Shown one piece after another: positions 573 through 21,384 of a stretch of 21,384 nt of DNA. The stretch spans positions 1-21,384 of IMG/VR virus record IMGVR_UViG_3300040807_000560. One strand, given 5' to 3'. The first letter of the stretch is position 1; each line of letters opens with the position of its first letter. The stretch is from a virus. The position numbers and the translations under genes are program-made. The notes under the pieces were generated by a model. It ran no database searches and was not told the DNA's origin. It was given only the letters and a program-made list of their open reading frames with translations.

Positions 573-607
573 GTTACTAATGTAACGTATTATTTAGTGT
601 TTGTCAA
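573..607 (-). promoter_or_regulatory. Overlapping sigma70 and late promoters with +1 hairpin
   Basis: Reading the minus strand, TTGACA (607-602), a 17-base spacer and TACATT (584-579) form a sigma70-type promoter. The late-type motif CTAAATA (597-591) lies inside its spacer. The hairpin GTTACATTAGTAAC (586-573) begins at the start site predicted from the late motif. The -35 box also contains the TGA stop of the gene at 604-786. Motif placement is seen directly; use of either promoter is inferred. Confidence 0.6.
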
Positions 608-786
608 CCACTAACATAATCTTTTTTTGGTCTGTACCAAACTTTTTGATGATATAGTTTTGCACGAAGATTTTGTATTTCACGCTTTCCTGCATCATCT
701 GCATCTGCTTGTAGTAGAAATAGAGCTGACTCGATCAGCTCTATATCTTTTACGTTTAGTTTGAAACTTTCATTCGGTTTTGCCAT
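604..786 (-). CDS. Small conserved phage protein with KVWYRPK tail, unknown
   Basis: The product has 60 residues. Its N-terminal helix (FKLNVKDIELIESALFLLQ) is followed by a basic C-terminus containing LYHQKVWYRPKK. This layout, an acidic helix then a HQKxWYRP-like end, occurs in many small phage proteins of unknown function. The start overlaps the end of the gene at 756-923 by 31 bases in another frame, typical of this packed cluster. No enzyme motif is visible. A small DNA- or protein-binding adaptor is possible but unsupported. Confidence 0.7.
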   Translation of the reverse strand: MAKPNESFKLNVKDIELIESALFLLQADADDAGKREIQNLRAKLYHQKVWYRPKKDYVSG

Positions 787-923
787 TTCTTACTCTTTCT
801 CATACCTAGGTAATGATCAGATGGTTCGTAGTTCCATCTCTTACCGTGGTGTCCTCTTATATCTGCATAGTACATACGTAACTTAGCAATTAATTTAACA
901 AGAGGATTAGAATTGGTTTTCAT
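756..923 (-). CDS. 55-residue basic small protein, unknown
   Basis: The minus-strand ATG at 923-921 opens 55 codons to a TAA at 758-756. The product is basic and rich in Lys, Arg, Tyr and Trp, with a central segment RGHHGKRWNYEPSDHYLG. Its ATG overlaps the TGA of the upstream 17-codon gene as ATGA, a standard arrangement for translational coupling. It has only a weak Shine-Dalgarno sequence of its own, consistent with coupling. It overlaps the next gene by 31 bases. No known domain is recognised. The overlaps on both sides make it likely to be real. Confidence 0.6.
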   Translation of the reverse strand: MKTNSNPLVKLIAKLRMYYADIRGHHGKRWNYEPSDHYLGMRKSKKWQNRMKVSN

Positions 924-973
924 TTAGACTTACCGTTAATGATATCCATTTCGTCGTCAGTGTAAGGCCACAT
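920..973 (-). CDS. 17-residue micro-protein MWPYTDDEMDIINGKSK
   Basis: A minus-strand ATG at 973-971 opens 17 codons ending in TGA. The start has a strong AGGAG 7 bases upstream. It shares one base with the TAA of the preceding 36-codon gene (TAATG), and its stop overlaps the next ATG (ATGA). Very short acidic peptides with an MWPYT-like start occur in marine phages. The precise overlaps and good ribosome binding site argue that it is translated, though it could serve mainly to couple translation to the next gene. Confidence 0.5.
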   Translation of the reverse strand: MWPYTDDEMDIINGKSK

Positions 974-1083
974 TATAGTGCTCCTGCATAATGTAAACCA
1001 TTAAGGACCATAAAGCCTGCTAACAAAGACATAACTCCTATTAGGATTAAAGTAGCTTTAGCGTAATCTTTCCAACTATACAT
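973..1083 (-). CDS. 36-residue single-pass membrane peptide
   Basis: A minus-strand ATG at 1083-1081 opens 36 codons. After a short polar start (MYSWKDYAK) residues 9-30 are strongly hydrophobic (ATLILIGVMSLLAGFMVL), so a single membrane helix is expected. The start overlaps the end of the gene at 1076-1282 by 8 bases, and the stop forms TAATG with the next gene. Together with the partly hydrophobic upstream protein it suggests a membrane function for this cluster, but no family is recognised. Confidence 0.55.
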   Translation of the reverse strand: MYSWKDYAKATLILIGVMSLLAGFMVLNGLHYAGAL

Positions 1084-1282
1084 CTTCTTTGTCCTTTCTT
1101 AGCATAAGGGCTTTTGCTTCGTCATAGTATCCCATGCGAGATAGTTCAGCAGCAGCTCTTGCTCTACCTGCTGATTCGCCTAGTGCAACAGCACCAACAA
1201 AAAATGCAATTAGTGCATTTCTGAAAACGGTGCAAATTTTGCATGTAACATTATAAAAACTTGTTTGAGTAATTGCAGTCAT
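1076..1282 (-). CDS. Small membrane-linked protein of the type that accompanies DUF1127 genes
   Basis: The product has 68 residues. Residues about 20-36 (FRNALIAFFVGAVALGE) are hydrophobic and may insert in a membrane. The C-terminal half, with GRARAAAELSRMGYYDEAKALM, resembles small alphaproteobacterial proteins that often accompany DUF1127 proteins. Its ATG shares a base with the stop of the DUF1127 gene (TAATG), so the two are translationally coupled. It may have been taken from a host. The link to DUF1127 rests on pattern memory and adjacency, not on a search. Confidence 0.65.
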   Translation of the reverse strand: MTAITQTSFYNVTCKICTVFRNALIAFFVGAVALGESAGRARAAAELSRMGYYDEAKALMLRKDKEDV

Positions 1283-1491
1283 TATCTTCTCTCCTCTAGG
1301 TCATATGCAACGCTGTAGATTTCTCCACGAGCAATACCTAGATCGTTAAGTTCATGATCGCTTAGTCTAGACAGTTCTTTAATAGTTTGTCTTGCTAGTC
1401 TTTCTCTAGCCATTGATGCGTTTAGTCTTTTGAACCACTCTGCAAGTGAGTGTAGGCCAATTCTATCAGCCGTCATTATAAGTGAAGTCAT
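1282..1491 (-). CDS. DUF1127 (YjiS-like) small protein
   Basis: This 69-residue protein carries the DUF1127 signature in residues about 33-60 (TIKELSRLSDHELNDLGIARG): an Arg-rich helix, L-S-x-L-S-D-x-E-L-x-D-L-G-I and a closing arginine-glycine. DUF1127 proteins are abundant in alphaproteobacteria. Studied members bind RNA or influence phosphate and carbon metabolism and small-RNA processing. AAGGAG lies 8 bases before the chosen ATG. It is the first gene of the cluster, behind a long structured leader and a late promoter. In a phage it could mimic the host factor, but that role is inferred. Confidence 0.82.
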   Translation of the reverse strand: MTSLIMTADRIGLHSLAEWFKRLNASMARERLARQTIKELSRLSDHELNDLGIARGEIYSVAYDLEERR

Positions 1492-1656
1492 CCTTCATTC
1501 TCCTTGTGTATATGTGTATGTGTGATTGTAGGTGTCACTACCCCGGTCTCTCCCGGCGCTACCTTTGTGTGGCATAGGATATGCCCTTCATTTTTTAAGA
1601 GCTGAAGACGCTCTTGAGAATGAAAATAGTGCAGGATTACTGTCCTATTTCATCAG
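1492..1656 (-). promoter_or_regulatory. Structured 5' leader of the minus-strand small-gene cluster
   Basis: About 160 bases separate the predicted late start site (about 1651) from the DUF1127 ATG. Several hairpins are visible. GAAATAG at 1651-1645 (minus strand) pairs with CTATTTTC at 1629-1622, with one bulged base. AAGAGC/GCTCTT lies at 1597-1615 and GGCATA/TATGCC with a 3-base loop at 1571-1585. A locally GC-rich CCGG...CCGG pair lies near 1544-1556. The last 40 bases before the gene are unstructured and end in AAGGAG. This is long for this phage, so a regulatory RNA role is plausible. Confidence 0.5.
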
Positions 1657-1664
1657 TATTTATA
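1657..1664 (-). promoter_or_regulatory. Late promoter TATAAATA for the minus-strand cluster
   Basis: The minus strand reads TATAAATA exactly, the T4 late promoter consensus recognised by the gp55-type sigma factor. Five bases later, at 1651, a G begins the first leader hairpin. A TATAAT at 1685-1680 upstream could be an early -10 box but has no good -35. Confidence 0.65.
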
Positions 1665-1744
1665 CTAATATACATTCTTATTATACAAAAGTCGAGTGTT
1701 TTTTATGCAAGACTGTCATGCATTTTTTGCAATAATCATATCTC

Positions 1745-1774
1745 TTGACTTCTAAGTCAATGTATGTTTAAATA
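1745..1774 (+). promoter_or_regulatory. Palindrome and late-type promoter directly before the dehydrogenase gene
   Basis: TTGACTT (1745-1751), CT, AAGTCAA (1754-1760) is a perfect 7-base palindrome. Its left arm can act as a -35 box (TTGACT), with TTAAAT 17 bases later. TTAAATA at 1768-1774 is also a late-type motif; five bases later comes the A of the ATG at 1780. No Shine-Dalgarno sequence is present, so a late transcript would be leaderless. The palindrome could be an operator. Confidence 0.5.
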
Positions 1775-1779
1775 GTAAT

Positions 1780-2511
1780 ATGAAAATTACTATCGCAGGG
1801 TACGGATTTGTAGGCAAAGCGCACCACGAACTTTTAAAAGACAAACACAACATTACAATATATGATCCAGAATTAGGATATAAAGATTTTGGCGAGCCTG
1901 AAGCTGTTATTGTATGTGTAAGTACACCACAACGTCCAGACGGCAGTTGTGAAATGACTAACGTGTTTGAAGTTATCGATCGTTGTCCTGATGTACCTAT
2001 TTTAATTAAAAGTACAATTAGTGTAGAAGGTTGGGACATGTTAGTAGATGCATTTCCTAATCGTATGTTAAACTTCTCTCCAGAGTTCCTACGTGCAAAG
2101 ACAGCAGTTGAAGATCTACGTGCAATGAATCTAATGCTCATTGGCGGGACTAGTTGTAACTTTTGGTCACACTTGTTTAATATTAGTATTGAAGTTGCAG
2201 ATCCTAAAGAACTTATCCTAGCTAAGTATGCTCGCAACAGTTTCCTAGCACTCAAAGTTGCGTTCTTTAATCAGATGTATGACCTGTGTGATAAACTAGA
2301 TATTGAGTATGCAGCCGTTGCACACTATACAACAATGGACAATCGTATCGGCGATAGTCATAGTTTTATTACAGAAGAGAGAGGATTTGGTGGACATTGC
2401 TTTCCTAAAGATACTAACGCACTGGTAAAAACAGCAGAACGTGATAATGTTGAACTATCTATTCTAAAAGAAGCTCTGGCATATAATAACACAATTAGAA
2501 AGAATAAATAA
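1780..2511 (+). CDS. UDP-glucose/GDP-mannose dehydrogenase-family protein, short form
   Basis: The N-terminus is a Rossmann NAD-binding fold with GYGFVG (glycines 7, 9 and 12). FSPEFLR (99-105), K149 with N153 in the AKYARNSFLALK helix, and GFGGHCFPKD with C207 match the catalytic Glu, Lys/Asn and Cys of nucleotide-sugar 6-dehydrogenases. These enzymes oxidise UDP-glucose or a similar sugar twice, using NAD, to the uronic acid. At 243 residues it lacks the usual C-terminal nucleotide-sugar-binding domain of the roughly 400-450-residue enzymes. It may have a changed substrate or need a partner. The gene lacks a Shine-Dalgarno sequence and may be leaderless. The next gene starts 16 bases after its stop behind a late motif. 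Confidence 0.85.
   Translation: MKITIAGYGFVGKAHHELLKDKHNITIYDPELGYKDFGEPEAVIVCVSTPQRPDGSCEMTNVFEVIDRCPDVPILIKSTISVEGWDMLVDAFPNRMLNFSPEFLRAKTAVEDLRAMNLMLIGGTSCNFWSHLFNISIEVADPKELILAKYARNSFLALKVAFFNQMYDLCDKLDIEYAAVAHYTTMDNRIGDSHSFITEERGFGGHCFPKDTNALVKTAERDNVELSILKEALAYNNTIRKNK
2503..2510 (+). promoter_or_regulatory. Late promoter AATAAATA before the gene at 2528
   Basis: The late-type motif overlaps the last codons of the dehydrogenase gene. The predicted start at about 2516 would give a short leader beginning with the AAAGGAG ribosome binding site, 12 bases before ATG. Confidence 0.5.
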
Positions 2512-2527
2512 TTGTAAAGGAGATGTT

Positions 2528-3454
2528 ATGGGAATATTTAGTGGTGCTACAAAAGCAGTAGGTTGGTTAGGAGAAAAGTTAAACCTTAGTTGGTTAACAG
2601 GTGGAGCAGCAGGGGCAGCTCTTACTACTCCAACATCTGATATCACTGTTGAAATATCTGTGCCTGAACTATATCCTAGTCCAGGTGGACCGTTTCCTCT
2701 TCAACACCAAGGAAGTTTTACACTTAAGGTACCTGATCATAGTAAAGATCTAGGCGATATTGCTCTTAATATGGCGCAAAACTCTCTTGCTCTAGTTGAA
2801 CTAGCAATCGCAATACAAAGTATTGTTGATGAAGAAGGCGGCTTAAGAATCAAAGATCAATTAGATCCGTATCATTATCAAGTTATTAAAAATGCACTAG
2901 AAGAAAATAACGAACCTGTTCCTGAAGTTAGAGAACCTAATGCTACAGTATTAAGTGATTTAGGTGGAGAGATTACAGAAACAGGATTACTTTCAAATCT
3001 TGCAACAGCAGCTGATGCATTAGGTTCAGTTAGTCCTTTGGTAGAATCATATACATCTTTAGGCGCAGCTAAGTATAGGGTTCCTGGAAGAGTTAGTACA
3101 GGAGAGGTTGGCGCTTCCTTTGCTGATGGAAATAACCCAGAATCAGATTCCCCAATCAACGGGTTCCCTCCAGGCACAACAGCAGTTGATATGACTGTAT
3201 GGGTAAGTGGTTATTTTCCAGATTATTCATTACCTTATAAAATAATGAATTCGGCTATACAGATACAAGGGTTTATTATGCAATATGCAGTTTCTAATTT
3301 AAGAAATGCAATTGATACTGATGCTAAAGCTCTTGTACTTAAAAATTTAATGGGCGAATTTGGCAAAGAAGTTAGCGACAATGCTATCAAAGCTACAGGT
3401 AATACACCACCTGATTGGGAAGAACCTACTGGACAATCAGGAATAAGAAGCTAA
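2528..3454 (+). CDS. Probable virion protein upstream of PAAR, unknown
   Basis: The product has 308 residues. The N-terminal 35 residues are Gly/Ala-rich and partly hydrophobic (MGIFSGATKAVGWLGEKLN then TGGAAGAA). A beta-rich segment with SVPELYPSPGGPFPLQHQG, a helical middle, and a segment rich in Gly, Pro and Asn (about 190-225) follow. AAAGGAG lies 6 bases before ATG. Its stop overlaps the ATG of the PAAR gene (TAATG), so the two are made together, and a tail-tip or baseplate partner role is likely from context. I do not recognise a family. A chaperone or adaptor that loads the PAAR spike is another possibility. Confidence 0.7.
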   Translation: MGIFSGATKAVGWLGEKLNLSWLTGGAAGAALTTPTSDITVEISVPELYPSPGGPFPLQHQGSFTLKVPDHSKDLGDIALNMAQNSLALVELAIAIQSIVDEEGGLRIKDQLDPYHYQVIKNALEENNEPVPEVREPNATVLSDLGGEITETGLLSNLATAADALGSVSPLVESYTSLGAAKYRVPGRVSTGEVGASFADGNNPESDSPINGFPPGTTAVDMTVWVSGYFPDYSLPYKIMNSAIQIQGFIMQYAVSNLRNAIDTDAKALVLKNLMGEFGKEVSDNAIKATGNTPPDWEEPTGQSGIRS

Positions 3455-3735
3455 TGGCTAAAGTTGCAAGAAAAGAACAAGACATCGCAGTTGGCATTGT
3501 AAGAACAGGACGCCTAAGTGTTATTGTCAATGGCACACCTATTGCATGTGAAGGTGACTTAATTAACCCACATGCTCCTGGAGGCCCACACACTGCTAGT
3601 GTTATTGTTGGATATTGGCCTACTGTTTGGGCTGAAAACAGACAAGTAGCAAGAAAACATGATGCTACAAGTTGCGGCCATCCTATTCAAACAGGATCAT
3701 CTAACGTTTTTGTCGGTACTGACGATAACGGTTAA
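3454..3735 (+). CDS. PAAR-like tail-spike tip protein
   Basis: The chosen ATG at 3454 overlaps the preceding stop and gives 93 residues; an earlier in-frame start at 3415 would lie inside the upstream gene. PAAR proteins form the sharp cone on the gpV/VgrG-type membrane-piercing spike; T4 gp5.4 is the phage example. The signs are SVIVNGTPIACEGDLINPH, a pair of short beta repeats, late His and Cys residues (H in ARKHDATSCGHP, C in SCGH) that could hold the metal, and the ending GSSNVFVGTDDNG. The stop shares TTAA with the stop of the convergent lipase gene. Confidence 0.8.
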   Translation: MAKVARKEQDIAVGIVRTGRLSVIVNGTPIACEGDLINPHAPGGPHTASVIVGYWPTVWAENRQVARKHDATSCGHPIQTGSSNVFVGTDDNG

Positions 3736-4517
3736 GTTTGACTGTTTTCTTTTCCTTTAGCATACATTTCTAAATAGTTAATGTAGTTTGCCATTGAATG
3801 GTCTGAGAAACTATCAATTTGTCCTCTCTTTATGCCCATCCATAGTCCGCGCCACTTATCTTTGAAACGTTGCCAGCGAGTTGGCTTGCGTACATTGCCC
3901 CAACAGTTTAGATAGTGTTCTTCACCGTCGTGTTTGTATCCAATAAACCAAGGCGGAACAGTTGTAACAATGTCATTGTTGTTTACCCAACGATGATGTT
4001 TAGTTTGCATTGTATTTACATAACCTTTCCATCCTGCTCTAGGCGAGCCATATGTATAAAGTTCTTCAGCATCACGAACATTATCTTCGTAGTAACAACG
4101 AGCTGTCATAATAGTAGCCATTGCTGCTCCTAGGCTGTGTCCACAGAACCAAAGTTTTTTGTCTTTATTTTGTGTACGAGTAATATCTTCTAGTACCATA
4201 GGCCAAAGTTCGTCTACTTCTGCTTTGAATCCTCTGTGTACTCTTGACACTGTTTCTGATACTACAGGTGCTGCCTTTAGGTCAGCAGCAATATCATTAA
4301 ACTCACTTGGTTGTGTTCCACGACACGCTATAACTAGATCTTCTTTGTTCATAAAGCGATATGCCTGTGCGCCCTCCCTGTTGTAAAATTCAACAGTTGT
4401 AAACCCTAGATCTTTTACTTGCTTTTTTACTTCTTTGACGTTATCATTATACGCAATACTCGCAAGTTTAGCGAATAATAGAGAACGTTCAGGAAAACTC
4501 ATTTTTGTGATGCCCAT
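3732..4517 (-). CDS. Class 3 lipase-family alpha/beta hydrolase
   Basis: The product has 261 residues. GHSLG (126-130) gives the nucleophile S128. D182 in NNNDIVTTVPP and H196 in YKHDG complete a class 3 lipase triad, and RGTQP (66-70) matches the usual oxyanion-hole region. These enzymes hydrolyse ester bonds of acylglycerols or related lipids. No signal peptide is seen, so it acts in the cytoplasm or is carried in the virion. GAGGGG lies 5 bases before the ATG. A late promoter and a hairpin beginning at +1 lie just upstream (4541-4570). Late expression fits a role in envelope damage at lysis or in entry, which is inferred. Confidence 0.85.
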   Translation of the reverse strand: MGITKMSFPERSLLFAKLASIAYNDNVKEVKKQVKDLGFTTVEFYNREGAQAYRFMNKEDLVIACRGTQPSEFNDIAADLKAAPVVSETVSRVHRGFKAEVDELWPMVLEDITRTQNKDKKLWFCGHSLGAAMATIMTARCYYEDNVRDAEELYTYGSPRAGWKGYVNTMQTKHHRWVNNNDIVTTVPPWFIGYKHDGEEHYLNCWGNVRKPTRWQRFKDKWRGLWMGIKRGQIDSFSDHSMANYINYLEMYAKGKENSQT

Positions 4518-4540
4518 TTTAACCCCTCGTTGTTATATAG

Positions 4541-4570
4541 TGCTACTGCCCAGTAGCAAACGTATTTATA
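4541..4570 (-). promoter_or_regulatory. Late promoter TATAAATA with +1 hairpin for the lipase gene
   Basis: The minus strand reads TATAAATA at 4570-4563, then CGTTT, then GCTACTGGGCAGTAGC from 4557. That is a perfect 6-base stem with a GGGC loop, starting exactly at the predicted +1. The leader to the ATG is about 40 bases. Confidence 0.7.
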
Positions 4571-4581
4571 GTTTACATAAA

Positions 4582-4607
4582 CTAAATACTGTAACGGAGT
4601 ATTACAG
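4582..4607 (+). promoter_or_regulatory. Late promoter CTAAATA and hairpin holding the ribosome binding site
   Basis: CTAAATA (4582-4588) lies 19 bases before the ATG at 4608, back to back with the lipase promoter. CTGTAA (4589-4594) and TTACAG (4602-4607) are perfectly complementary and place CGGAG, the Shine-Dalgarno sequence, in a 7-base loop. A transcript from the predicted +1 (about 4593-4594) would lose most of the left arm, so only read-through or earlier transcripts could form the hairpin. Confidence 0.55.
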
Positions 4608-4871
4608 ATGAAAAAAAGAACCAGAAGTATACTAGAAGAATTAAACAATCTAGACCGTGCTAGAAGTAATGATCATTTGATCGAAGCTACTGGCAGTAAT
4701 ATAATTGAAAGTGCAATTAATTTACTTAATCGTATTTCAAAAACTTATGACGAAAGTACCGCTGGAGAATTAGAACGCCGCTTTATTAATAGTATTAAAT
4801 CTGGTGACCCGCAAAAATTTAAAAGAGGTCTTAAAAAAGTTATAGAGAGTAAACAAAATGATATTGAATGA
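4608..4871 (+). CDS. Small helical protein, candidate packaged head protein, unknown
   Basis: This 87-residue, highly charged and helical protein opens the operon 4608-7648. The first 30 residues (MKKRTRSILEELNNLDRARS onward) contain two possible prohead-protease sites, I-L-E at 8-10 and L-I-E|A at 24-27. The rest includes a segment ERRFINSIKSGDPQKFKRGL. The start has CGGAG 9 bases upstream. The end overlaps the nucleotidyltransferase gene by 14 bases. It resembles small conserved proteins of T4-like marine phages whose function is not known. Packaging is inferred from the N-terminus and neighbours. Confidence 0.7.
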   Translation: MKKRTRSILEELNNLDRARSNDHLIEATGSNIIESAINLLNRISKTYDESTAGELERRFINSIKSGDPQKFKRGLKKVIESKQNDIE

Positions 4872-5733
4872 AGGCGGATCAATGCCGGGCGTAGGCCCAA
4901 TTCACATTAGTGAAATTGAACCTACATTAGATGCACTAGAAAAATCTTTAGGTATAGATCTAAAGAACAATGTTCTCGGTAGTGTAGGTAAAAAAGAGTT
5001 TAGCGGCGACATAGATGTTGCAATTCAAGTAGATCCTGATAAAATTCCTGAACTTGTAAAGAAAATTGAAGCAAGTCCTTTGGTAAAAGACATTGCAAAG
5101 TCCAGTGTTATTATGACAAGTGTTGACATTGTAAATTATGATGCAAGTAAACAAACAGTAAAACCTAGAACAGGTAAAGTACAAGTAGACTTTATGCCAG
5201 GTGATCCAGGTTGGATGAAAACATACTATCATAGTCCAAGTGAAAAAGAATCAAAGTATAAAGGTGTATTCCGTAATATTATGATTGCAACTATCTGTGC
5301 AGTGTACCAAAGACAAGACTCTGAAGAAAAAATAGACGATGGTCGTGCAGTTGAAAGCGAGCGTTGGATGTGGAGTCCTGCAGACGGACTTGTAAGAATT
5401 AAGCGTACTCCTGTACCTAAAGCAAATGGACAAGGTTATACAAAGAAAAACAAAAACGAAATTATAGCACAGCCAATTCGTACTGCTCCAGAAATTGCAA
5501 AAGCATTAGGTCTAAATGGACCTGAAGATTTAAACAGTTACGAAAGTTTAAAAGCAGCAATTGAAAAGAATTATCCAGCAGAACTAGTTACAAAGATTTT
5601 AGATAGCTTTGCTGAAAACGGACAAGTTAAAGATATTGGTGTACCAGATGATCTAGTTAAACAAGAAAGTTTAGCAGACAAACAATTAAATAGAATTAAG
5701 CAGTTAACAGGATATAAACAATATGAGGTTTAA
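4858..5733 (+). CDS. Nucleotidyltransferase-fold protein (GS...DxD, hD)
   Basis: The product has 291 residues. GS (41-42) followed by DID (51-53) and V-D-F (D111) form the metal-binding signature of the DNA polymerase beta / minimal nucleotidyltransferase superfamily: GS, then DxD on one strand, then a third Asp on a neighbouring strand. Such enzymes transfer an NMP to a nucleic acid, antibiotic or protein. The C-terminal 120 residues are Lys-rich and helical, and may bind RNA or a partner. The start at 4858 overlaps the preceding gene; M9 is an alternative. It overlaps the ligase-like gene by 11 bases, which suggests a joint function. The substrate cannot be told from sequence. Confidence 0.75.
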   Translation: MILNEGGSMPGVGPIHISEIEPTLDALEKSLGIDLKNNVLGSVGKKEFSGDIDVAIQVDPDKIPELVKKIEASPLVKDIAKSSVIMTSVDIVNYDASKQTVKPRTGKVQVDFMPGDPGWMKTYYHSPSEKESKYKGVFRNIMIATICAVYQRQDSEEKIDDGRAVESERWMWSPADGLVRIKRTPVPKANGQGYTKKNKNEIIAQPIRTAPEIAKALGLNGPEDLNSYESLKAAIEKNYPAELVTKILDSFAENGQVKDIGVPDDLVKQESLADKQLNRIKQLTGYKQYEV

Positions 5734-6865
5734 CGAATTTAGAAACTTTATAAAGAAACCGTTAACTGAAGCTGCTCGCATTCAACACGCAGAAGATATT
5801 ATTTTCTGGGAGGGCAGTCGTGGTGCAATGCGAGCACTTGAAGCTCTTAAAAGTATGGAAAAGGGTTCGCATAAAGATGTTACATTAAAATGGGACGGAA
5901 GTCCTGCAATCATTTTTGGACGTAACGAAAATGGAGAATTTGTACTTACAGACAAGAGTGGCTTTACAGCAAAAGGCTATGACGGAAAAACAACATCAGC
6001 AGATGCACTAGGCACAATGTTAGGCAATCGTCCAGGAGCTAAAAAAGATCCTAAAGGCTACGGTTCTTTCATACAAAATATGCAAGACATATTTGACGAG
6101 TATGAAAAAGCAACACCTAAAGATCATAGAGGTTACTTCAAAGGCGACTTATTATATTTTAACACACCTGCAAAGATAGATGGTAACTATGTGTTTAAAC
6201 CAAACATTGTAGAATATGCAGTTGATGTAAATTCAGACTTAGGTAAACGTATTGGAAAATCAAAAACAGGTGTAGTTATACACAGAGTTGTAGACGAATA
6301 TGGCAACGAAGGTCCTTTAAAGAATGCTGATATATTTCAAGGTAATGAAGTATTAGTTGTTCCGCCTGTTACTGTAGAACGTCCTGCAGATGTAGACAAT
6401 CAACAAATTGTACAATTAGAAAGATTAATCCAACAAAATTCTTCTGGCATTGATGAATTGTTAAATACAGATGCACTAAGAGAAATGAAAATAAGTGATT
6501 TTGCACAAGTATTGTACGCCTATACAAACAGTAAAGTTGATACTGGCCTAGAAAATTTAGGTTCTGATTTTGCACAATGGGTACAAAATAGGAAACAGTT
6601 GTCAGAAAGGAAAAAGGCAACAATACTTGAGTATGTAAATCAGCATAGAAATGCATTTAATGCGTTATGGCAAACAGTAACAGCATTAATGACTGTAAAA
6701 GATAATATTATTCAACAGTTTGACTCACATGATCAAACTGTTAAATCAAACATTCCAGGACACGGCGATGGCGGTGAAGGCTATGTACTAGCGCATCCTG
6801 AAGGTGATATTAAACTAGTACCAAGAGAATTCTTCACTAAAGCTAATAGAGCTGTTCAACGATAA
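5723..6865 (+). CDS. Ligase-like covalent nucleotidyltransferase candidate (DUF6267-like)
   Basis: The product has 380 residues. LKWDGSPAIIFGR (55-67) matches motif I (KxDG) of ATP-dependent DNA/RNA ligases, with K56 the candidate AMP-accepting lysine. YFKGDLLYF (138-146) resembles motif III. GEGYVL (351-356) and IKLVP with K364 resemble motifs IV and V. Residues about 225-340 are helical and look inserted between the motifs. The N-terminus MRFNEFRNFIKKPLTEA resembles T4 capsid-targeting sequences and has an L-T-E|A site at 14-17. It overlaps the nucleotidyltransferase gene by 11 bases. I believe it belongs to a phage family annotated only as DUF6267. Ligase activity is inferred from motif order, not shown. 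Confidence 0.65.
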   Translation: MRFNEFRNFIKKPLTEAARIQHAEDIIFWEGSRGAMRALEALKSMEKGSHKDVTLKWDGSPAIIFGRNENGEFVLTDKSGFTAKGYDGKTTSADALGTMLGNRPGAKKDPKGYGSFIQNMQDIFDEYEKATPKDHRGYFKGDLLYFNTPAKIDGNYVFKPNIVEYAVDVNSDLGKRIGKSKTGVVIHRVVDEYGNEGPLKNADIFQGNEVLVVPPVTVERPADVDNQQIVQLERLIQQNSSGIDELLNTDALREMKISDFAQVLYAYTNSKVDTGLENLGSDFAQWVQNRKQLSERKKATILEYVNQHRNAFNALWQTVTALMTVKDNIIQQFDSHDQTVKSNIPGHGDGGEGYVLAHPEGDIKLVPREFFTKANRAVQR

Positions 6866-6875
6866 GGAGCAAAAA

Positions 6876-7322
6876 ATGAAAGATTATATGAAAGAGTTTG
6901 AAGCACACTTAAACAAGGTTACTGAAGGTGTGTTAGATGACGAAGTAAAAGAAGCTGGCATGGAGATGACTGACCAACAGCGTAAACTAGCAGAGTATGG
7001 TAGAATACTAATGGATCAGGCTGTGACACAAAAAGACGATGCATTGTCAAATGTAATGGCAAAGGTAGGTAATGAACTTACTAACTATGGTTCATCATTT
7101 GGTGCAAGAAGTTTAGATGATCTTGTTAAAAAGACAGGCACTTCACCAAACATAATTAAAAAATTACTAGCATTTGCGGAAAATATTGCAGCTACTCAAA
7201 AACATCTTGATACAGATCATGACTCAGGTGGTCTTGATGACGAAGGTGATGATGAATTTACCCAAGCGTCAGATGACGAAATGGCAGCAATGGCAGATCG
7301 TGCAGCGAGAGATGCAGACTAA
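6876..7322 (+). CDS. Acidic helical protein, unknown
   Basis: The product has 148 residues with AAGGAG 8 bases before the ATG. It is helical in the first 110 residues and very acidic at the end (a run rich in Asp, Glu and Gly, then MAAMADRAARDAD). The N-terminus (MKDYMKEFEAHLNKVTEG) begins like the packaged-protein pattern, with a weaker V-T-E|G site. The next gene starts at its stop (TAATG). It could be a scaffold-like or internal head component, or an acidic partner for the basic virion proteins nearby. No family is recognised. Confidence 0.7.
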   Translation: MKDYMKEFEAHLNKVTEGVLDDEVKEAGMEMTDQQRKLAEYGRILMDQAVTQKDDALSNVMAKVGNELTNYGSSFGARSLDDLVKKTGTSPNIIKKLLAFAENIAATQKHLDTDHDSGGLDDEGDDEFTQASDDEMAAMADRAARDAD

Positions 7323-7648
7323 TGAACTTTATTAAAGATATGTATAAAGAAGGGCTAGTTGAAAGTCAATTAGACGAGGATGCCTGGGCTGATATTAGAG
7401 GCCGTCGCATAGAACGTTTATCAAAAGAAAAACGTGTAGCACTATATGCATATCTAGTTGGCTTAGAAAATGCTATGAGAGCTACTAAGTTTGTAGAAAT
7501 GGCTGAAGAAGGTCGTACCCCACCAAATCAATATGTAAAAGGCTATGCTCCTATAGTTGAAATGATAGATGATATAGTTGAAGGCGGTACAGCATACATA
7601 CAACAGCTAAGACAACTACATAAACGAGCTAAAAAAGGGCGTAAATAG
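7322..7648 (+). CDS. Basic helical protein, unknown
   Basis: The product has 108 residues. The N-terminus (MNFIKDMYKEGLVESQLDE) carries L-V-E|S at 12-15 and L-D-E at 17-19. The body is helical with GRRIERLSKEKRVALYAYLVGLE, and the C-terminus is strongly basic (RQLHKRAKKGRK). It is the last gene of the 4608-7648 operon, translationally coupled to the acidic protein upstream, so an acidic/basic pair is possible. A weak terminator overlaps its last codons. No catalytic motif is seen. Confidence 0.7.
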   Translation: MNFIKDMYKEGLVESQLDEDAWADIRGRRIERLSKEKRVALYAYLVGLENAMRATKFVEMAEEGRTPPNQYVKGYAPIVEMIDDIVEGGTAYIQQLRQLHKRAKKGRK

Positions 7649-7657
7649 CCTATTTTT
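7631..7657 (+). terminator. Weak terminator at the end of the 4608-7648 operon
   Basis: AAAAAAGGGC (7631-7640) can pair imperfectly with GCCTATTTTT (7648-7657), leaving a short loop and a T5 run. It overlaps the stop codon region. The G-T pair and mismatch make it weak. Confidence 0.35.
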
Positions 7658-7667
7658 GTCTAAAAGA

Positions 7668-7701
7668 CTAAATACATATAACAACTTCACTGAGCGTGAA
7701 G
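7668..7701 (+). promoter_or_regulatory. Late promoter CTAAATA with 5' hairpin before the gene at 7733
   Basis: CTAAATA at 7668-7674 predicts a start at about 7680. CTTCAC (7685-7690), TGAGC, GTGAAG (7696-7701) forms a perfect 6-base hairpin within the first 22 bases of the transcript. TAGGAG follows 7 bases before the ATG. Confidence 0.65.
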
Positions 7702-7732
7702 ATGTGTCATAGAGAAAATATAGGAGAATAAC

Positions 7733-8017
7733 ATGGCAGGACCAGGATTTGGCGCAATCGCAGGCGTCGACAATTACAAAGCAAGAGCAGGAAGTGGCTT
7801 AGGCCCACGCACACAGATCGTTGTAACAGACGCCGCTGTGGCAGACCAAGCTGCACTAGACGCAATCGTTGCAGCAGCAGGCGTTGGCGGATGGACAGTA
7901 GCAGGCATTGCAGGTTCATTAGCAGGCGTTATGCACATCGCACTACAAGGTGGCGGTGATGCAGACGGCGAAACTATTGGACAAGCAGTTTCAATTGTAG
8001 CAGACTTCACTGAATAA
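7733..8017 (+). CDS. Small, probably abundant structural protein, unknown
   Basis: This 94-residue protein is rich in Ala and Gly with few charged residues. It starts MAGPGFGAIAGVDNYKAR, has an Ala/Val-rich middle and ends in a short acidic tail. It has a strong ribosome binding site, its own late promoter with a 5' hairpin, and a strong terminator, so it is a single-gene transcription unit. Its base composition is clearly GC-richer than its neighbours, with many C-ending codons, as in highly expressed genes. Together these point to an abundant virion component such as a head decoration or tube protein. No family was recognised. An open frame on the opposite strand is taken as a shadow. Confidence 0.75.
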   Translation: MAGPGFGAIAGVDNYKARAGSGLGPRTQIVVTDAAVADQAALDAIVAAAGVGGWTVAGIAGSLAGVMHIALQGGGDADGETIGQAVSIVADFTE

Positions 8018-8061
8018 TTCCTAACTACCTTAGGGACCGTGACAACGGAAGGCGTCACACT

Positions 8062-8092
8062 AAAGCGTCACTTTTTAAGTGGCGCTTTTTTT
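8062..8092 (+). terminator. Strong intrinsic terminator
   Basis: AAAGCGTCACTT (8062-8073) and AAGTGGCGCTTT (8077-8088) form a 12-base stem with one G-T pair and a TTT loop, ending in a run of seven T (8086-8092). A second GGCGTCAC at 8051-8058 could compete for the right arm, and GTGAC (8039-8043) pairs with GTCAC (8054-8058). Confidence 0.85.
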
Positions 8093-8095
8093 ATG

Positions 8096-8109
8096 ACTGT
8101 AAATACAGT
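8096..8109 (+). promoter_or_regulatory. Palindrome ACTGTAAATACAGT with late motif, leaderless start
   Basis: ACTGTA, AA, TACAGT is a perfect palindrome lying between the terminator and the ATG at 8110. It contains GTAAATA (8099-8105), a late-type motif, and four bases later comes the ATG. No Shine-Dalgarno sequence is present. Since transcription should stop at 8092, a promoter here is needed. Confidence 0.55.
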
Positions 8110-8505
8110 ATGAGATTTCAGATAAAAACGCTAGTAGATGTTACAGAAACACAAGCTCGTAAAGGGCAAGATAAGAAACTAGTAAATCAACAAGATAACT
8201 TTAATACGTTATACAATACAATTGGACTGCGTACAAACCCATCTGATTTTAAGATAACCGTTGAAACACAGTCATTAGCAGATTTAACATTTGGTAAAAA
8301 ATATAAAGGAAAGCAAAAGGTTTGGACAATTGAGTTCTTTGTTGAACAAGAAGCATCAACTAGTGTAGACATGATGATAGATGATTTTAATCTAGTACCT
8401 ATTATTACAGGTCTTGATGAAACTATAAATTTAGATACAGATATGTTTATCACTTCCAAAAATAAGGACTTAACTAACATTATTTTCATTGAAATTGATA
8501 AATAA
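8110..8505 (+). CDS. Conserved T4-like phage protein, unknown
   Basis: This 131-residue, mostly beta-rich protein (MRFQIKTLVDVTETQARKG at the start, IEFFVEQEASTSVDMMIDDF in the middle, IIFIEIDK at the end) resembles a conserved family in T4-like marine phages with no assigned role. It starts 4 bases after a late-type TAAATA and has no ribosome binding site, so it is predicted to be translated from a leaderless mRNA. A second late motif overlaps its stop and serves the next gene. No catalytic residues stand out. Confidence 0.75.
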   Translation: MRFQIKTLVDVTETQARKGQDKKLVNQQDNFNTLYNTIGLRTNPSDFKITVETQSLADLTFGKKYKGKQKVWTIEFFVEQEASTSVDMMIDDFNLVPIITGLDETINLDTDMFITSKNKDLTNIIFIEIDK

Positions 8506-8525
8506 AAATGTAGCAAAGATGTTAC
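8498..8525 (+). promoter_or_regulatory. Late promoter ATAAATA with +1 hairpin for the XhlA-like gene
   Basis: ATAAATA (8498-8504) overlaps the stop of the previous gene. Five bases later, at 8510, GTAGCA pairs with TGTTAC (8520-8525, one G-T pair) around a 4-base loop. The predicted leader is about 93 bases. Confidence 0.6.
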
Positions 8526-8602: not shown

Positions 8603-8836
8603 ATGGCATCGCCTACACAACTTGAAAAAGAAAATTTAGAAGCACACGTAGACTTATGCGCTCAACGCTATGAAGTCTTAGAAGGTCGCCTCACTAAAGT
8701 TGAAGAAAAGATAGACCATATTCACAAAGATATTACAGAAGGTCAAAAGTCATTGACCAAAGTCCTAATTGGTACAGCAGGTACTGTTATTGCAGGACTA
8801 CTTTCCACAGTAATCGTTATTATTACACAAAGTTAA
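8603..8836 (+). CDS. XhlA-like coiled-coil membrane protein (holin-associated candidate)
   Basis: The product has 77 residues. Residues 1-50 form a charged coiled coil (LEKENLEAHVDLCAQRYEVL and on). Residues about 54-75 (VLIGTAGTVIAGLLSTVIVII) form a single C-terminal membrane helix. This matches XhlA-type haemolysin/holin-associated proteins of phages. The membrane anchor with a cytoplasmic coiled coil fits a lysis or membrane-docking role. CGGAG lies 7 bases before ATG, and the leader has two hairpins, so timing may be controlled. Holin activity is not certain, because one helix only is present and no endolysin is seen in this window. Confidence 0.75.
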   Translation: MASPTQLEKENLEAHVDLCAQRYEVLEGRLTKVEEKIDHIHKDITEGQKSLTKVLIGTAGTVIAGLLSTVIVIITQS

Positions 8837-8842
8837 ATCTCG

Positions 8843-8849
8843 ATAAATA
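8843..8849 (+). promoter_or_regulatory. Late motif ATAAATA 5 bases before ATG, leaderless start
   Basis: ATAAATA is followed by ACTAT and the ATG at 8855, with no Shine-Dalgarno sequence, so the predicted +1 is the A of the start codon. Confidence 0.55.
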
Positions 8850-8854
8850 ACTAT

Positions 8855-9166
8855 ATGTTATTACGAGAATTTTTTAATCAGCCAGCCTCATCTGACGATA
8901 ACCTAGAAGAAAAACAAGTATGGGCTCGTCGAGGAAAAGAAGTTGTCCGCAAATACCGTTGTCAAGGCGGTAGACGCAACGGACGCATTGTTGCTAAAAT
9001 GGCACAATGTTATGCAGCACCTGATGCAAAAAAACGTGCAAGACTAAAAGTTATGAAGGCAAAACTAGGTAGTAGAATTGCTAAAAAAACTAAAAGGACT
9101 AAGCGTATTAATCCTGCCTCAATAAGAGTACAGAGATTAAACAAGATGCAAAAAAGGAAACGCTGA
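8855..9166 (+). CDS. Basic virion-associated protein, first of two paralogues
   Basis: This 103-residue protein is very rich in Lys and Arg. The N-terminus MLLREFFNQPASSDDNLEEK has an L-E-E site at 17-19, then QVWARRGKEVVRKYRCQGGRRNGRIV, a conserved Cys pair (C36 and C51) and a basic tail with NPASIRVQRLNK. The next gene repeats the same order, so they arose by duplication. High positive charge suggests DNA or RNA binding, and the N-terminus suggests head packaging with protease trimming. A histone-like internal head protein is my best guess. Its stop shares a base with the next ATG. Confidence 0.75.
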   Translation: MLLREFFNQPASSDDNLEEKQVWARRGKEVVRKYRCQGGRRNGRIVAKMAQCYAAPDAKKRARLKVMKAKLGSRIAKKTKRTKRINPASIRVQRLNKMQKRKR

Positions 9167-9916: not shown

Positions 9917-10331
9917 AGAAAAGTTACTAAAAGAGCTTGAAGATTTAGTTAATGGAAAAATTGACTCTTCTTTGTTTCCTTACCAAAAAGGAAACAGTAT
10001 TCGCATTGGACAATTTGTAGTTAGATGCAATAAGAGAGGTTTCTGGAAAGTGTATGATTGTGTTGATAACAAATTAGTAACAGAAACTTTTTGTAAATCT
10101 AGCGCAGTTGCTTTAGCCAAAGCACTAAGTCAAGGTAAATCTGCTGAAGCAGACATTTTAAACATTGACAGAAAAATACAAAAGTGGTATAATGATTGTA
10201 TGTTTTATAGATATACTATGAAAGTAACAAAAGATGATCTTAAATACGATATTGTATCAACAAGATATGATATTGCTAAACATAAAACATCATCAGCAAA
10301 ACAAGAGTTAGATAAATACATTTATGCATGA
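9903..10331 (+). CDS. Conserved phage protein, unknown
   Basis: The product has 142 residues. The first part includes a beta-rich segment (SIRIGQFVVRCNKRGFWKVYDCVDNKL) and the second part is helical, basic and Tyr-rich, ending in ELDKYIYA. It overlaps the preceding gene by 14 bases. It resembles conserved unknown proteins of T4-like marine phages found next to structural genes. A late promoter for the next gene begins 7 bases after its stop. No catalytic motif is apparent. Confidence 0.7.
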   Translation: MTYNREKLLKELEDLVNGKIDSSLFPYQKGNSIRIGQFVVRCNKRGFWKVYDCVDNKLVTETFCKSSAVALAKALSQGKSAEADILNIDRKIQKWYNDCMFYRYTMKVTKDDLKYDIVSTRYDIAKHKTSSAKQELDKYIYA

Positions 10332-10337
10332 CAAGGC

Positions 10338-10344
10338 ATAAATA
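10338..10344 (+). promoter_or_regulatory. Late promoter ATAAATA before the gene at 10374
   Basis: The motif lies 30 bases before the start, giving a predicted leader of about 24 bases that contains AGGAAGAG. No hairpin is seen at +1. Confidence 0.55.
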
Positions 10345-12658: not shown

Positions 12659-12687
12659 TTGACAAACATGCCAGACCCTATTATAAT
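12659..12687 (+). promoter_or_regulatory. Consensus sigma70 promoter for the nuclease gene
   Basis: TTGACA (12659-12664), a 17-base spacer and TATAAT (12682-12687) match the bacterial consensus exactly. The start at 12714 lies about 20 bases after the expected +1. This implies early transcription by host polymerase. Confidence 0.85.
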
Positions 12688-18225: not shown

Positions 18226-18228
18226 AGG

Positions 18229-18257
18229 TTGACAACTCTAAAGAGTTAGTGTATTAT
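18229..18257 (+). promoter_or_regulatory. Sigma70 promoter with palindromic spacer before nrdB
   Basis: TTGACA (18229-18234), 17 bases, TATTAT (18252-18257). The spacer begins with AACTCT, AA, AGAGTT (18234-18247), a perfect 6-base palindrome where a repressor could bind. Confidence 0.7.
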
Positions 18258-20983: not shown

Positions 20984-21275
20984 CAAAGCAGTAATTATAT
21001 TTTCACTCCGTCCTGAGAACATAGGACGTATTGTTAATGTGGCAGAATATATTGGTAAATTTAGTGAGCGTGAAAAATTTCAATTTAGAGGAATGCCTTG
21101 TATGGCAATGGTCACTGATCATCATTGGTGGATTGAAGCAGAAGATTTAAGCATACAGTTTGGGCCAAGTCCTCGTGCTTATATTGCTGACAGTTGGCTA
21201 CGTAAGATAGAACCACCAAAAGAAAAACTTTCTAAAGAAGCAGAAAAAGAACTTGACATTTTAGCATATAAATAG
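20964..21275 (+). CDS. Conserved phage/bacterial small protein with PRAYIADSWLRKI, unknown
   Basis: The product has 103 residues. MNVKEGDKAVIIFSLRPENI followed by GRIVNVAEYIG looks like a small beta-barrel (SH3-like), with HHWWIEAEDL and PRAYIADSWLRKIEPPKE in a conserved C-terminal half. Similar proteins of unknown function occur in phages and proteobacteria. The start has no clear ribosome binding site. The stop lies inside a TATAAATA late motif. Confidence 0.65.
   Translation: MNVKEGDKAVIIFSLRPENIGRIVNVAEYIGKFSEREKFQFRGMPCMAMVTDHHWWIEAEDLSIQFGPSPRAYIADSWLRKIEPPKEKLSKEAEKELDILAYK
21267..21274 (+). promoter_or_regulatory. Late motif TATAAATA 4 bases before the last ATG
   Basis: An exact T4 late consensus overlaps the previous stop and lies 4 bases before ATG at 21279, with no Shine-Dalgarno sequence. 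A leaderless start is possible. The codons GCA TAT AAA TAG could also give the motif by chance. Confidence 0.4.
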
Positions 21276-21278
21276 TGT

Positions 21279-21384
21279 ATGAAACCTATTTACATTCACG
21301 GGGCGACCGCCAGTGAGCGTAGTTTTGCCTTTATACAGCAGTCACTTAAAACTAAAAATCCTATCTACTTAAACTACGAAAAAG
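21279..21384 (+). CDS. N-terminus of a possible alpha/beta hydrolase (partial)
   Basis: ATG at 21279 opens a frame that runs off the window after 35 codons. MKPIYIHGATASERSFAFIQ has the strand, HGA oxyanion loop and helix start of small alpha/beta hydrolases. The nucleophile region lies outside the window, so the call is tentative. Confidence 0.5.
   Translation, partial: MKPIYIHGATASERSFAFIQQSLKTKNPIYLNYEK

Follow-up and report, generated by a model that had tools for sequence, protein, structure and literature searches.

Candidate 5'-terminal hairpins on long-leader late transcripts of marine T4-like phages

Late mRNAs that may begin with a hairpin

Some of the late mRNAs in a clade of marine T4-like phages, those with long leaders, may carry protective stem-loops at their 5' ends, a reading that we hold with about even confidence from sequence comparison. 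The window, by which we mean the whole stretch of 21,384 bases that was analysed, is a fragment of a marine T4-like phage genome, and the position of the hairpins, their covariation, their dependence on leader length and their G-U bias were computed directly.

In the mRNAs concerned the leader would be so long that a ribosome at initiation leaves the 5' end uncovered. Their RNA hairpin would start at +1 with about 0–1 unpaired bases before it, and selection would act on its pairing and position rather than on its letters. It would most likely deny a single-stranded 5' end to an RppH-type pyrophosphohydrolase, to 5' sensing by RNase E and to an RNase J-type exonuclease, and by blocking 5'-end-dependent decay would lengthen the life of the late mRNA; late genes with a short leader or none would not need it. 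A review (PMC3997798) states that RppH and RNase E require single-stranded 5' ends, which accounts for stabilisation by 5' structure. 5'-end protection is the most economical candidate function for hairpins at +1; that they form in the cell and protect the message we infer.

Late promoters and the transcript start

TAAATA occurs 35 times in the window against 31.8 expected and is not over-represented, so late boxes were accepted by their position and by conservation upstream of orthologs. In the relatives an ATG lies exactly 5 bases after the box in 183 genes (55 families) and exactly 4 bases after it in 67 genes (25 families), and a spacing of 6 is found in just 14 genes (6 families). With a start codon 5 (or 4) bases past TAAATA these late mRNAs look leaderless, which would put +1 at the sixth base after the box; the +1 of this report is the start inferred from such genes. 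The promoters are of the T4 late type, with a TATAAATA-like box and the inferred +1 5–6 bases downstream, and they are conserved upstream of late genes. Leaderless-looking late genes on the plus strand of the window are 1780–2511 (TAAATA-N5-ATG at 1769–1782, with a box 4–5 bases before the ATG in only 3 of 53 orthologs), 8110–8505 (TAAATA-N4-ATG at 8100–8112; same spacing in 44 of 71 orthologs), 8855–9166 (TAAATA-N5-ATG at 8844–8857; 56 of 93) and a gene cut off by the window edge (TATAAATA-N4-ATG at 21269–21281). Genes were called with a custom script and no standard caller; the counts exclude duplicate leaders, sites near locus ends and genes truncated at the edges of the 20 kb pieces, L247 was omitted from one set of 55 references, and the window row was added to another set of 39.

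The hairpin units of the window

The first-pass annotation had described stems at or within a few bases of +1 in five late units of the window. All of these boxes and stems are present, and in four units the stem begins within one base of the inferred +1, 5 bases after TAAATA in the 591 and 4563 units (minus strand) and 6 bases after it in the 1657 (minus) and 8499 (plus) units; the stem at 7685, in the plus-strand 7669 unit, begins 11 bases after its box, at about +6. In the 591 unit the box (591–596), found upstream of 68 of 69 orthologs, is followed by the hairpin GTTAC-ATTA-GTAAC at +1 (573–586) and by gene 234–545; its family, family 3, shows covariation and has a stem at offset 1–16 from the box in 47 of its 66 unique leaders. 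The 1657 unit has its box (1657–1662) within TATAAATA, an imperfect hairpin from +1, GAAATAG ... CTATTTT (1623–1651; -7.5 kcal/mol), and a DUF1127 gene (PF06568, 1282–1491), and 27 of 40 leaders of its family 10 have a stem at offset 1–16. The box of the 4563 unit (4563–4568), again within TATAAATA, precedes TGCTACT-GGGC-AGTAGCA at +1 (4541–4558) and a class 3 lipase-like gene (PF01764, 3732–4517). In the 8499 unit the box (8499–8504) overlaps the stop of gene 8110–8505, and GTAGCA-AAGA-TGTTAC at +1 (8510–8525), with one G-U pair, lies ahead of gene 8603–8836. Hairpin conservation is weak or clade-limited in the families of these last two units: a stem is present in 11 of 59 leaders of family 4 (8499 unit), and in family 2 (4563 unit) 8 of the 18 long leaders but none of the 58 short ones have a hairpin at offset 4–7.

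The z scores of the folds, -3.2 (591), -1.8 (1657), -1.9 (4563), -2.0 (7669) and -0.7 (8499), are not all remarkable. Five of the seven window boxes with leaders of at least 35 bases have a stem starting 4–13 bases downstream against 0.46 expected, a number equalled in 0 of 2000 simulations; this set of seven was the first-pass annotation's own choice, so independent data weigh more. Stems at offset 4–13 are absent from window units 10313, 13465, 15872, 4583 and 2505, and Rfam covariance models gave no match at gathering score in the window, nor at these leaders when 7 loci from relatives were scanned. The plus-strand 10313 unit was rejected as a further +1 stem: its long stem begins 2 bases past the box, few relatives share it, and the fold from +1 has a z score of -0.1.

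The stem at 7685 is a different element from the +1 class. Its box (7669–7674) is conserved upstream of orthologs, its hairpin CTTCAC-TGAGC-GTGAAG (7685–7701) has a recurring GAG loop, and the gene lies at 7733–8017. Single hairpins of this type are found in 35 of 41 cases in family 9 and in 34 of 36 in family 11. RNAalifold found zero consensus pairs in the alignment, probably because the variable stems are out of register. The named structure has 40 both-side changes against 17.3 shuffled, yet a slide of +1 gave 50, so this test is weak by itself here and the case rests on the single hairpins.

Stem position and leader length

Weighted by family over 90 long-leader families, stem starts peak at offsets 5–7 and are highest at 6, and those at offsets 4–7 amount to 16.9 against 4.08 shuffled. 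Independent data from five pooled relatives give 12 stems at offset 4–7 among 89 long leaders against 3.6 in shuffles, with 0 of 200 runs as high, but the effect is modest against real intergenic controls (see below). In the single genomes G007 and G002 the excess is small (3 of 20, expected 2.1, and 5 of 22, expected 2.5).

Almost all hairpins lie in leaders of at least about 30 nt. A stem starting 3–13 bases past the box is found in 1 of 294 cases at spacings of 14–24, 5 of 225 at 25–34, 26 of 97 at 35–44, 128 of 180 at 45–60, 92 of 220 at 61–110 and 40 of 79 at 111–250, and 6–12% of shuffles in the three longest bins have stems. Short leaders cannot hold a hairpin without touching the start site, so the effect of length is partly geometric. 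The repeated placement extends to many long-leader late units, but not to short-leader or leaderless late genes, nor to several long-leader families (0 of 23 in family 13, 0 of 20 in 16, 0 of 10 in 14, 0 of 6 in 30, and 1 of 17 in family 1). In T4 and two cyanophages hairpins are at chance level, and among cultured relatives Pelagibacter phage HTVC008M has both +1 hairpins and leaderless boxes.

Leader length also bears on a possible role in translation, in which the hairpin would fold up the surplus 5' part of a long leader and so keep that part from pairing with the ribosome binding site, leaving an unstructured landing site, and mRNA stability would be irrelevant. Family 3 hairpins are followed by an unstructured ACACACATACACA-like stretch and a Shine-Dalgarno site, and the family 2 hairpin is added onto an otherwise normal leader of about 21–22 bases, its median distance to the ATG of 22 matching the whole leader of hairpin-free orthologs (median 21). 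By itself, however, such a role gives no reason why the stem should start at +1 and not elsewhere upstream of the ribosome site, and starts at offsets 14–20 are near shuffle level (9.5 against 7.9). We judge it unlikely.

Conserved pairing and changing sequence

Stems start at offsets 4–5 in 44 of 47 cases in family 3, 19 of 19 in family 18 and 45 of 50 in family 7, with 17, 16 and 24 different 5' arms, respectively. Both sides changed in 18 cells in family 3 against 5.9 shuffled, and in 0 in all slid controls; in family 18 the figures are 12 and 5.1 shuffled. The compensatory changes and the diverse arms are evolutionary evidence that pairing, not sequence, matters. RNAalifold recovered the second hairpin of family 7 and not the first, whose stems lie in two registers. 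Single imperfect pairs are G-U in 86 cases and A-C in 42 (18.3 and 21.8 in shuffles), an excess which points to a function of the stems as RNA rather than as DNA. The held position, the compensation, the family-weighted peak at +1 and the excess of G-U over A-C support what was first proposed, that late mRNA is under selection to start with a hairpin; the companion idea of a common 5' tag finds no support in the +1 class, where different gene families have no stem or loop sequence in common.

The same data speak to whether some of the palindromes are DNA operators that sit on an early promoter overlapping the late promoter and serve to shut early transcription off. The 591 unit has such an overlapping promoter on the minus strand, with a -35-like TTGACA (602–607) and a -10-like TACATT (579–584) within the hairpin. 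An early-like promoter is present in 62 of 69 members of family 3, its -10 within the palindrome and ending 12–13 bases past the late box in 60 counts, and the core stem of this family varies little (2 of 6 pairs never vary). Against operators, hairpins occur in families 18, 2 and 4 with an early promoter in 0 of 19, 0 of 7 and 0 of 11 cases, family 13, with the early promoter in 23 of 23 cases, lacks the hairpin, and a DNA site would not favour G-U over A-C. Operators seem to us improbable.

Since the early -10 lies inside the 591-unit hairpin, this hairpin would be carried by the late transcript alone. If the hairpins are 5'-end protectors, late mRNA taken as a class might avoid a free, ribosome-uncovered 5' end by a leaderless start, a short leader or a +1 hairpin. 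At overlapping early and late promoters such as those of the 591 unit, early transcription that begins immediately behind the hairpin might then give an unprotected early and a capped late message of the same gene, a switch of mRNA lifetime chosen by the promoter. We offer this extension tentatively and give it a modest chance.

Controls with real sequence

The first enrichment tests used shuffles alone, and controls of real sequence lower the effect from about six-fold to about two-fold. With control sites that have TAAATA or its complement within 80–90 bases left out, a stem at offset 4–7 follows 73 of 323 TAAATA boxes against 37 of 258 intergenic A/T-hexamer controls (p=0.014), or 71 of 320 against 33 of 254 when terminator-like stems are dropped, a modest excess of about 1.7–1.9-fold. 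Divergent promoters carry it (38 of 96 against 1 of 12, p=0.052, with few controls), and where the upstream gene is on the same strand there is no excess over controls (33 of 224 against 32 of 242). Late promoters exceed early-like ones at offset 4–7 (72 of 320 against 3 of 60, p=0.001); stems at early-like promoters start slightly later (12 of 60 at offset 8–13), many of them in family 7, where early and late boxes overlap.

The stems of the control hexamers and the same-strand result are consistent with hairpins of no special function, whether intergenic terminators, other structures or GC-richer stems that flank A/T-rich boxes by composition. Against this reading stand the constant offset in families 3, 7 and 18, where the sequence changes with compensation, the family-weighted +1 peak and the frequency at divergent promoters, and we find it doubtful; the T-run that follows the GC-rich stem of an intrinsic terminator is present after just 4 of 73 clusters. 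Silencing of the T4 gene e type, in which the ribosome site is hidden by a helix in read-through RNA but free in the late transcript, whose start lies inside that helix, is very improbable: the +1-class hairpin is contained in the late transcript, and its end lies well short of the start codon, by a median of 44 bases over 22 families (lower quartile 24; family medians). The plus-strand 4583 unit, alone in having this geometry (with GGAG in the loop and the 5' arm ahead of +1), was rejected, since most of the 45 orthologs listed lack its stem.

Comparison with known systems

We found no report of +1 hairpins or leaderless boxes for T4-like late transcripts among the open-licence papers searched, and no paper on an Hsp20 thermometer lead. 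The E. coli ompA mRNA has a stabilising stem-loop at its 5' terminus. A stabilising 5' stem-loop is also described for papA mRNA and as a general case in PMC3997798. As in ompA and papA, the stem here is at or near the 5' end of the leader, upstream of the ribosome site, and its structure rather than its sequence would matter; unlike them, it takes the form of many sequence-unrelated hairpins on the late transcripts of one phage clade, whose stabilising effect is putative. The phi10 leader of T7 likewise belongs to a late phage mRNA that starts with a hairpin at +1; T7, however, transcribes with an RNA polymerase of its own from a common start sequence, whereas the promoter here is of the T4 late type and no sequence is shared.

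In T4 genes e, soc, 49 and I-TevI, according to a review (PMC3014915), an inhibitory RNA helix hides the ribosome site and the late transcript lacks the 5' arm. An RNA helix adjoins a T4-type late promoter in both cases, but the present late transcript differs in holding the hairpin and leaving the ribosome site free. Cyanophage T4-type late promoters have the box NATAAATA (PMC2984593), the same late box as here; S-PM2 and P-RSM6, in contrast, are without the leaderless peak (0 and 2 genes at spacing 4–5) and have stems near chance. Protective 5' stem-loops are known from single bacterial mRNAs, and if our reading is true, such stem-loops recur here independently of sequence on one class of promoter, which would connect mRNA decay with late transcription in marine phages that are abundant. 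Transcript starts of uncultured phages that lack RNA data could also be read from the hairpins and leaderless boxes.

Gene content and relatives

The window spans one entire virus record (21,384 bases). It carries nrdA and nrdB, a class 3 lipase gene and a DUF1127 gene (1282-1491), and its nearest DNA is the nrdA gene of T4-like cyanophages, at about 72%. Relatives were collected through six protein scans of IMG/VR, and one of them, phage G001, has a permuted tmRNA of the alphaproteobacterial type (L400:10808-11171), which hints at an alphaproteobacterial host. DUF1127 proteins are small RNA-related proteins of alphaproteobacteria. Other features of the window include a long, terminator-like inverted repeat (CCCCTGCTAAC...GTTAGCAGGGG, 101-168) between convergent genes, early promoter-like sequences at 12659-12687 (TTGACA-N17-TATAAT) and upstream of nrdB at 18226-18254 (TTGACA-N17-TATTAT), and two TAAATA boxes joined by an inverted repeat (ATTTATGC...GCATAAAT, 10313-10344), an arrangement also present in a few close relatives.

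Late boxes and predicted transcript starts

The window has no excess of TAAATA, but in relatives a box precedes 68 of the 69 unique orthologs found for the gene in the 591 unit (late units are named here by box position) and 83 of 87 lipase gene orthologs; 17 of 58 DUF1127 gene orthologs had no box in the 260 bases read and were counted as misses. In the collected loci an ATG follows the box after 5 bases in 183 genes (55 families) and after 4 bases in 67 genes (25 families), and after 6 or 7 bases in only 14 (6 families) and 8 (5 families), respectively; summed over 16 long phage records, TAAATA-N5-ATG, sought without gene calling, occurs 184 times and the reversed pattern 49 times. Late mRNAs with an ATG 4-5 bases past the box look leaderless, from which we infer that their +1 is the sixth base after TAAATA; the T4 late +1 likewise lies at the sixth base. 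Four window genes have the box 4-5 bases before the start codon: 1780 (box-to-start stretch 1769-1782), 8110 (8100-8112), 8855 (8844-8857) and 21279 (21269-21281). The relatives G001, G003, G002, G005 and G007 have 18, 19, 9, 7 and 8 genes at this spacing.

Hairpins near the predicted late +1

Stems begin 5, 6, 5, 11 and 6 bases past the end of the box in the 591 (minus), 1657 (minus), 4563 (minus), 7669 (plus) and 8499 (plus) units, respectively. The first-pass annotation placed a hairpin at or within a few bases of +1 in all five; all five stems exist, but only those of 591, 1657, 4563 and 8499 form a +1 class, and position and loop indicate that the 7669 hairpin is a separate element. The latter (7669-7733) is common to two different small-protein gene families, 9 and 11 (L009 and L098 are among the member loci), being present in 35/41 and 34/36 of their leaders, respectively. 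It starts mostly 9-13 bases past the box and often has GAG in its loop, and the leaders downstream of it resemble one another (CATT...AGGAGAA); it is perhaps a protein-binding site or a regulatory RNA element.

Five of the seven long leaders in the window have a stem at offset 4-13, versus 0.46 expected. Among 1,408 boxed genes, stems of at least 5 pairs and -2.5 kcal/mol or lower that begin 3-13 bases past TAAATA are found at box-to-ATG spacings of 14-24, 25-34 and 35-44 in 1/294, 5/225 and 26/97 cases, and at 45-60, 61-110 and 111-250 in 128/180, 92/220 and 40/79; with families weighted, 45-60 (p=0.001) and 61-110 (p=0.003) are significant and the other four spacings are not. Stem starts peak at offsets 5-7 (90 families, each weighted once), and family-weighted totals versus shuffles are 16.9 and 4.1 at offset 4-7, 13.9 and 5.8 at 8-13, and 9.5 and 7.9 at 14-20. 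Long leaders pooled from five relatives carry a stem at offset 4-7 in 12/89 cases versus 3.6 expected, a count reached in 0/200 shuffles, and the summed short leaders carry one at offset 4-13 in 3/163 cases versus 4.1 expected.

Real intergenic DNA is richer in hairpins than shuffled sequence, so shuffles overstate the excess. With other A/T-rich hexamers, similarly placed and without a box nearby, as controls, the excess at offset 4-7 is smaller (73/323 late boxes versus 37/258, p=0.014). When terminator-like stems are dropped, late boxes at divergent promoters have stems in 38/96 cases versus 1/12 controls, and those behind a same-strand gene in 33/224 versus 32/242, so it is the divergent promoters that supply the pooled evidence. 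A stem at offset 4-7 follows 3/60 early-like promoters (TTGACW-N16-18-TANNWT) versus 72/320 late boxes (p=0.001); 12/60 of these promoters have one at offset 8-13, many of the 12 being family 7 members with overlapping early and late boxes. The observation of a hairpin at +1 extends beyond the window and was mostly right.

Conservation of structure and alternative readings

The strongest evidence for the hairpins comes from comparisons within ortholog families. Stems are present in 47 of 66 leaders of family 3 (the 591 unit; 17 different arms, with an offset of 4 or 5 in 44 stems), in 19/19 leaders of family 18 (16 arms) and in 45/50 of family 7 (24 arms). Two pairs in family 3 alternate between T-A and C-G (18 cells in total), with no such switches in any slid register, and family 18 has both-side changes at four pairs. 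Among stems with a single imperfect pair, 86 have G-U and 42 have A-C (18 and 22 in shuffles), and this surplus of G-U points to stems that act as RNA. The stems do not extend into the ribosome site. We note that the family 7 leader, which precedes a membrane-protein-like gene, contains two hairpins (L401, gene start 9765, minus strand; L288:2381-2454; L016:286-356). The second (GUGAGCGACGG...CCGUCAAGC) shows good conservation and compensatory changes, and it matches no Rfam family.

The chief rival, confined to family 3, is that the palindrome is a DNA operator: the 591 unit has a TTGACA-N17-TACATT that overlaps its late box and has its -10 inside the hairpin, and 62/69 family members have such an early-like promoter. 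However, families 18, 2 (lipase) and 4 (the 8499 unit) have hairpins without an early promoter, and family 13 has an early promoter in 23/23 members without a hairpin. Early transcripts start about seven bases past the -10; the predicted early start is at the hairpin end, so the 591 hairpin would be present on the late transcript alone. A 5' tag, which the first-pass annotation had offered beside 5'-end protection, fails as a reading of the +1 class. Terminators were rejected, as just 4 of 73 stems are terminator-like.

Putative 5'-end protection

Protection of the 5' end by +1 hairpins is plausible. A review of mRNA decay (PMC3997798) states that RppH and RNase E depend on a 5' end that is single-stranded, with B. 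subtilis RppH requiring at least 2 unpaired bases, and that this dependence accounts for stabilisation by 5' structure. Counted from +1 (taken at offset 6), the group-weighted stem starts of the +1 class range from -2 to +1, leaving 0 or 1 unpaired 5' base, and such a hairpin would deny these enzymes a single-stranded 5' end. Long leaders would otherwise expose the 5' end, and on short leaders and leaderless mRNAs the initiating ribosome would presumably cover it. A hairpin on long leaders is not a rule, since families 13, 16, 14, 30 and 1 include long leaders that lack one. The hairpin of the lipase family looks like an addition to an otherwise normal leader, with 22 bases from hairpin to ATG versus a 21-base leader in hairpin-free orthologs.

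Comparison with other phages

Long leaders of the SAR11 phage HTVC008M have a stem in 4/13 cases versus 1.2 expected, and ten of its genes look leaderless, with 4-5 bases between box and ATG. Stems are near chance in S-PM2 (3/21, 2.5 expected) and P-RSM6 (2/14, 1.1 expected), and T4 has one at offset 4-13 in 1/12 long leaders (1.5 expected); P-RSM6 has 2 genes at the 4-5 base spacing, and T4 and S-PM2 have 0. Three relatives and the cyanophage P-RSM6 also have hairpins near +1 ahead of genes (L400, L459, L411 and L439) that we take, from reading their protein sequences, to be Hsp20-like, and 3/4 of these leaders have GAAA or TTCG loops. In T4, as far as the available text of PMC3014915 describes them, helices near late promoters conceal the ribosome site and the gene e helix is missing from the late transcript, which is the opposite arrangement from the +1 class.
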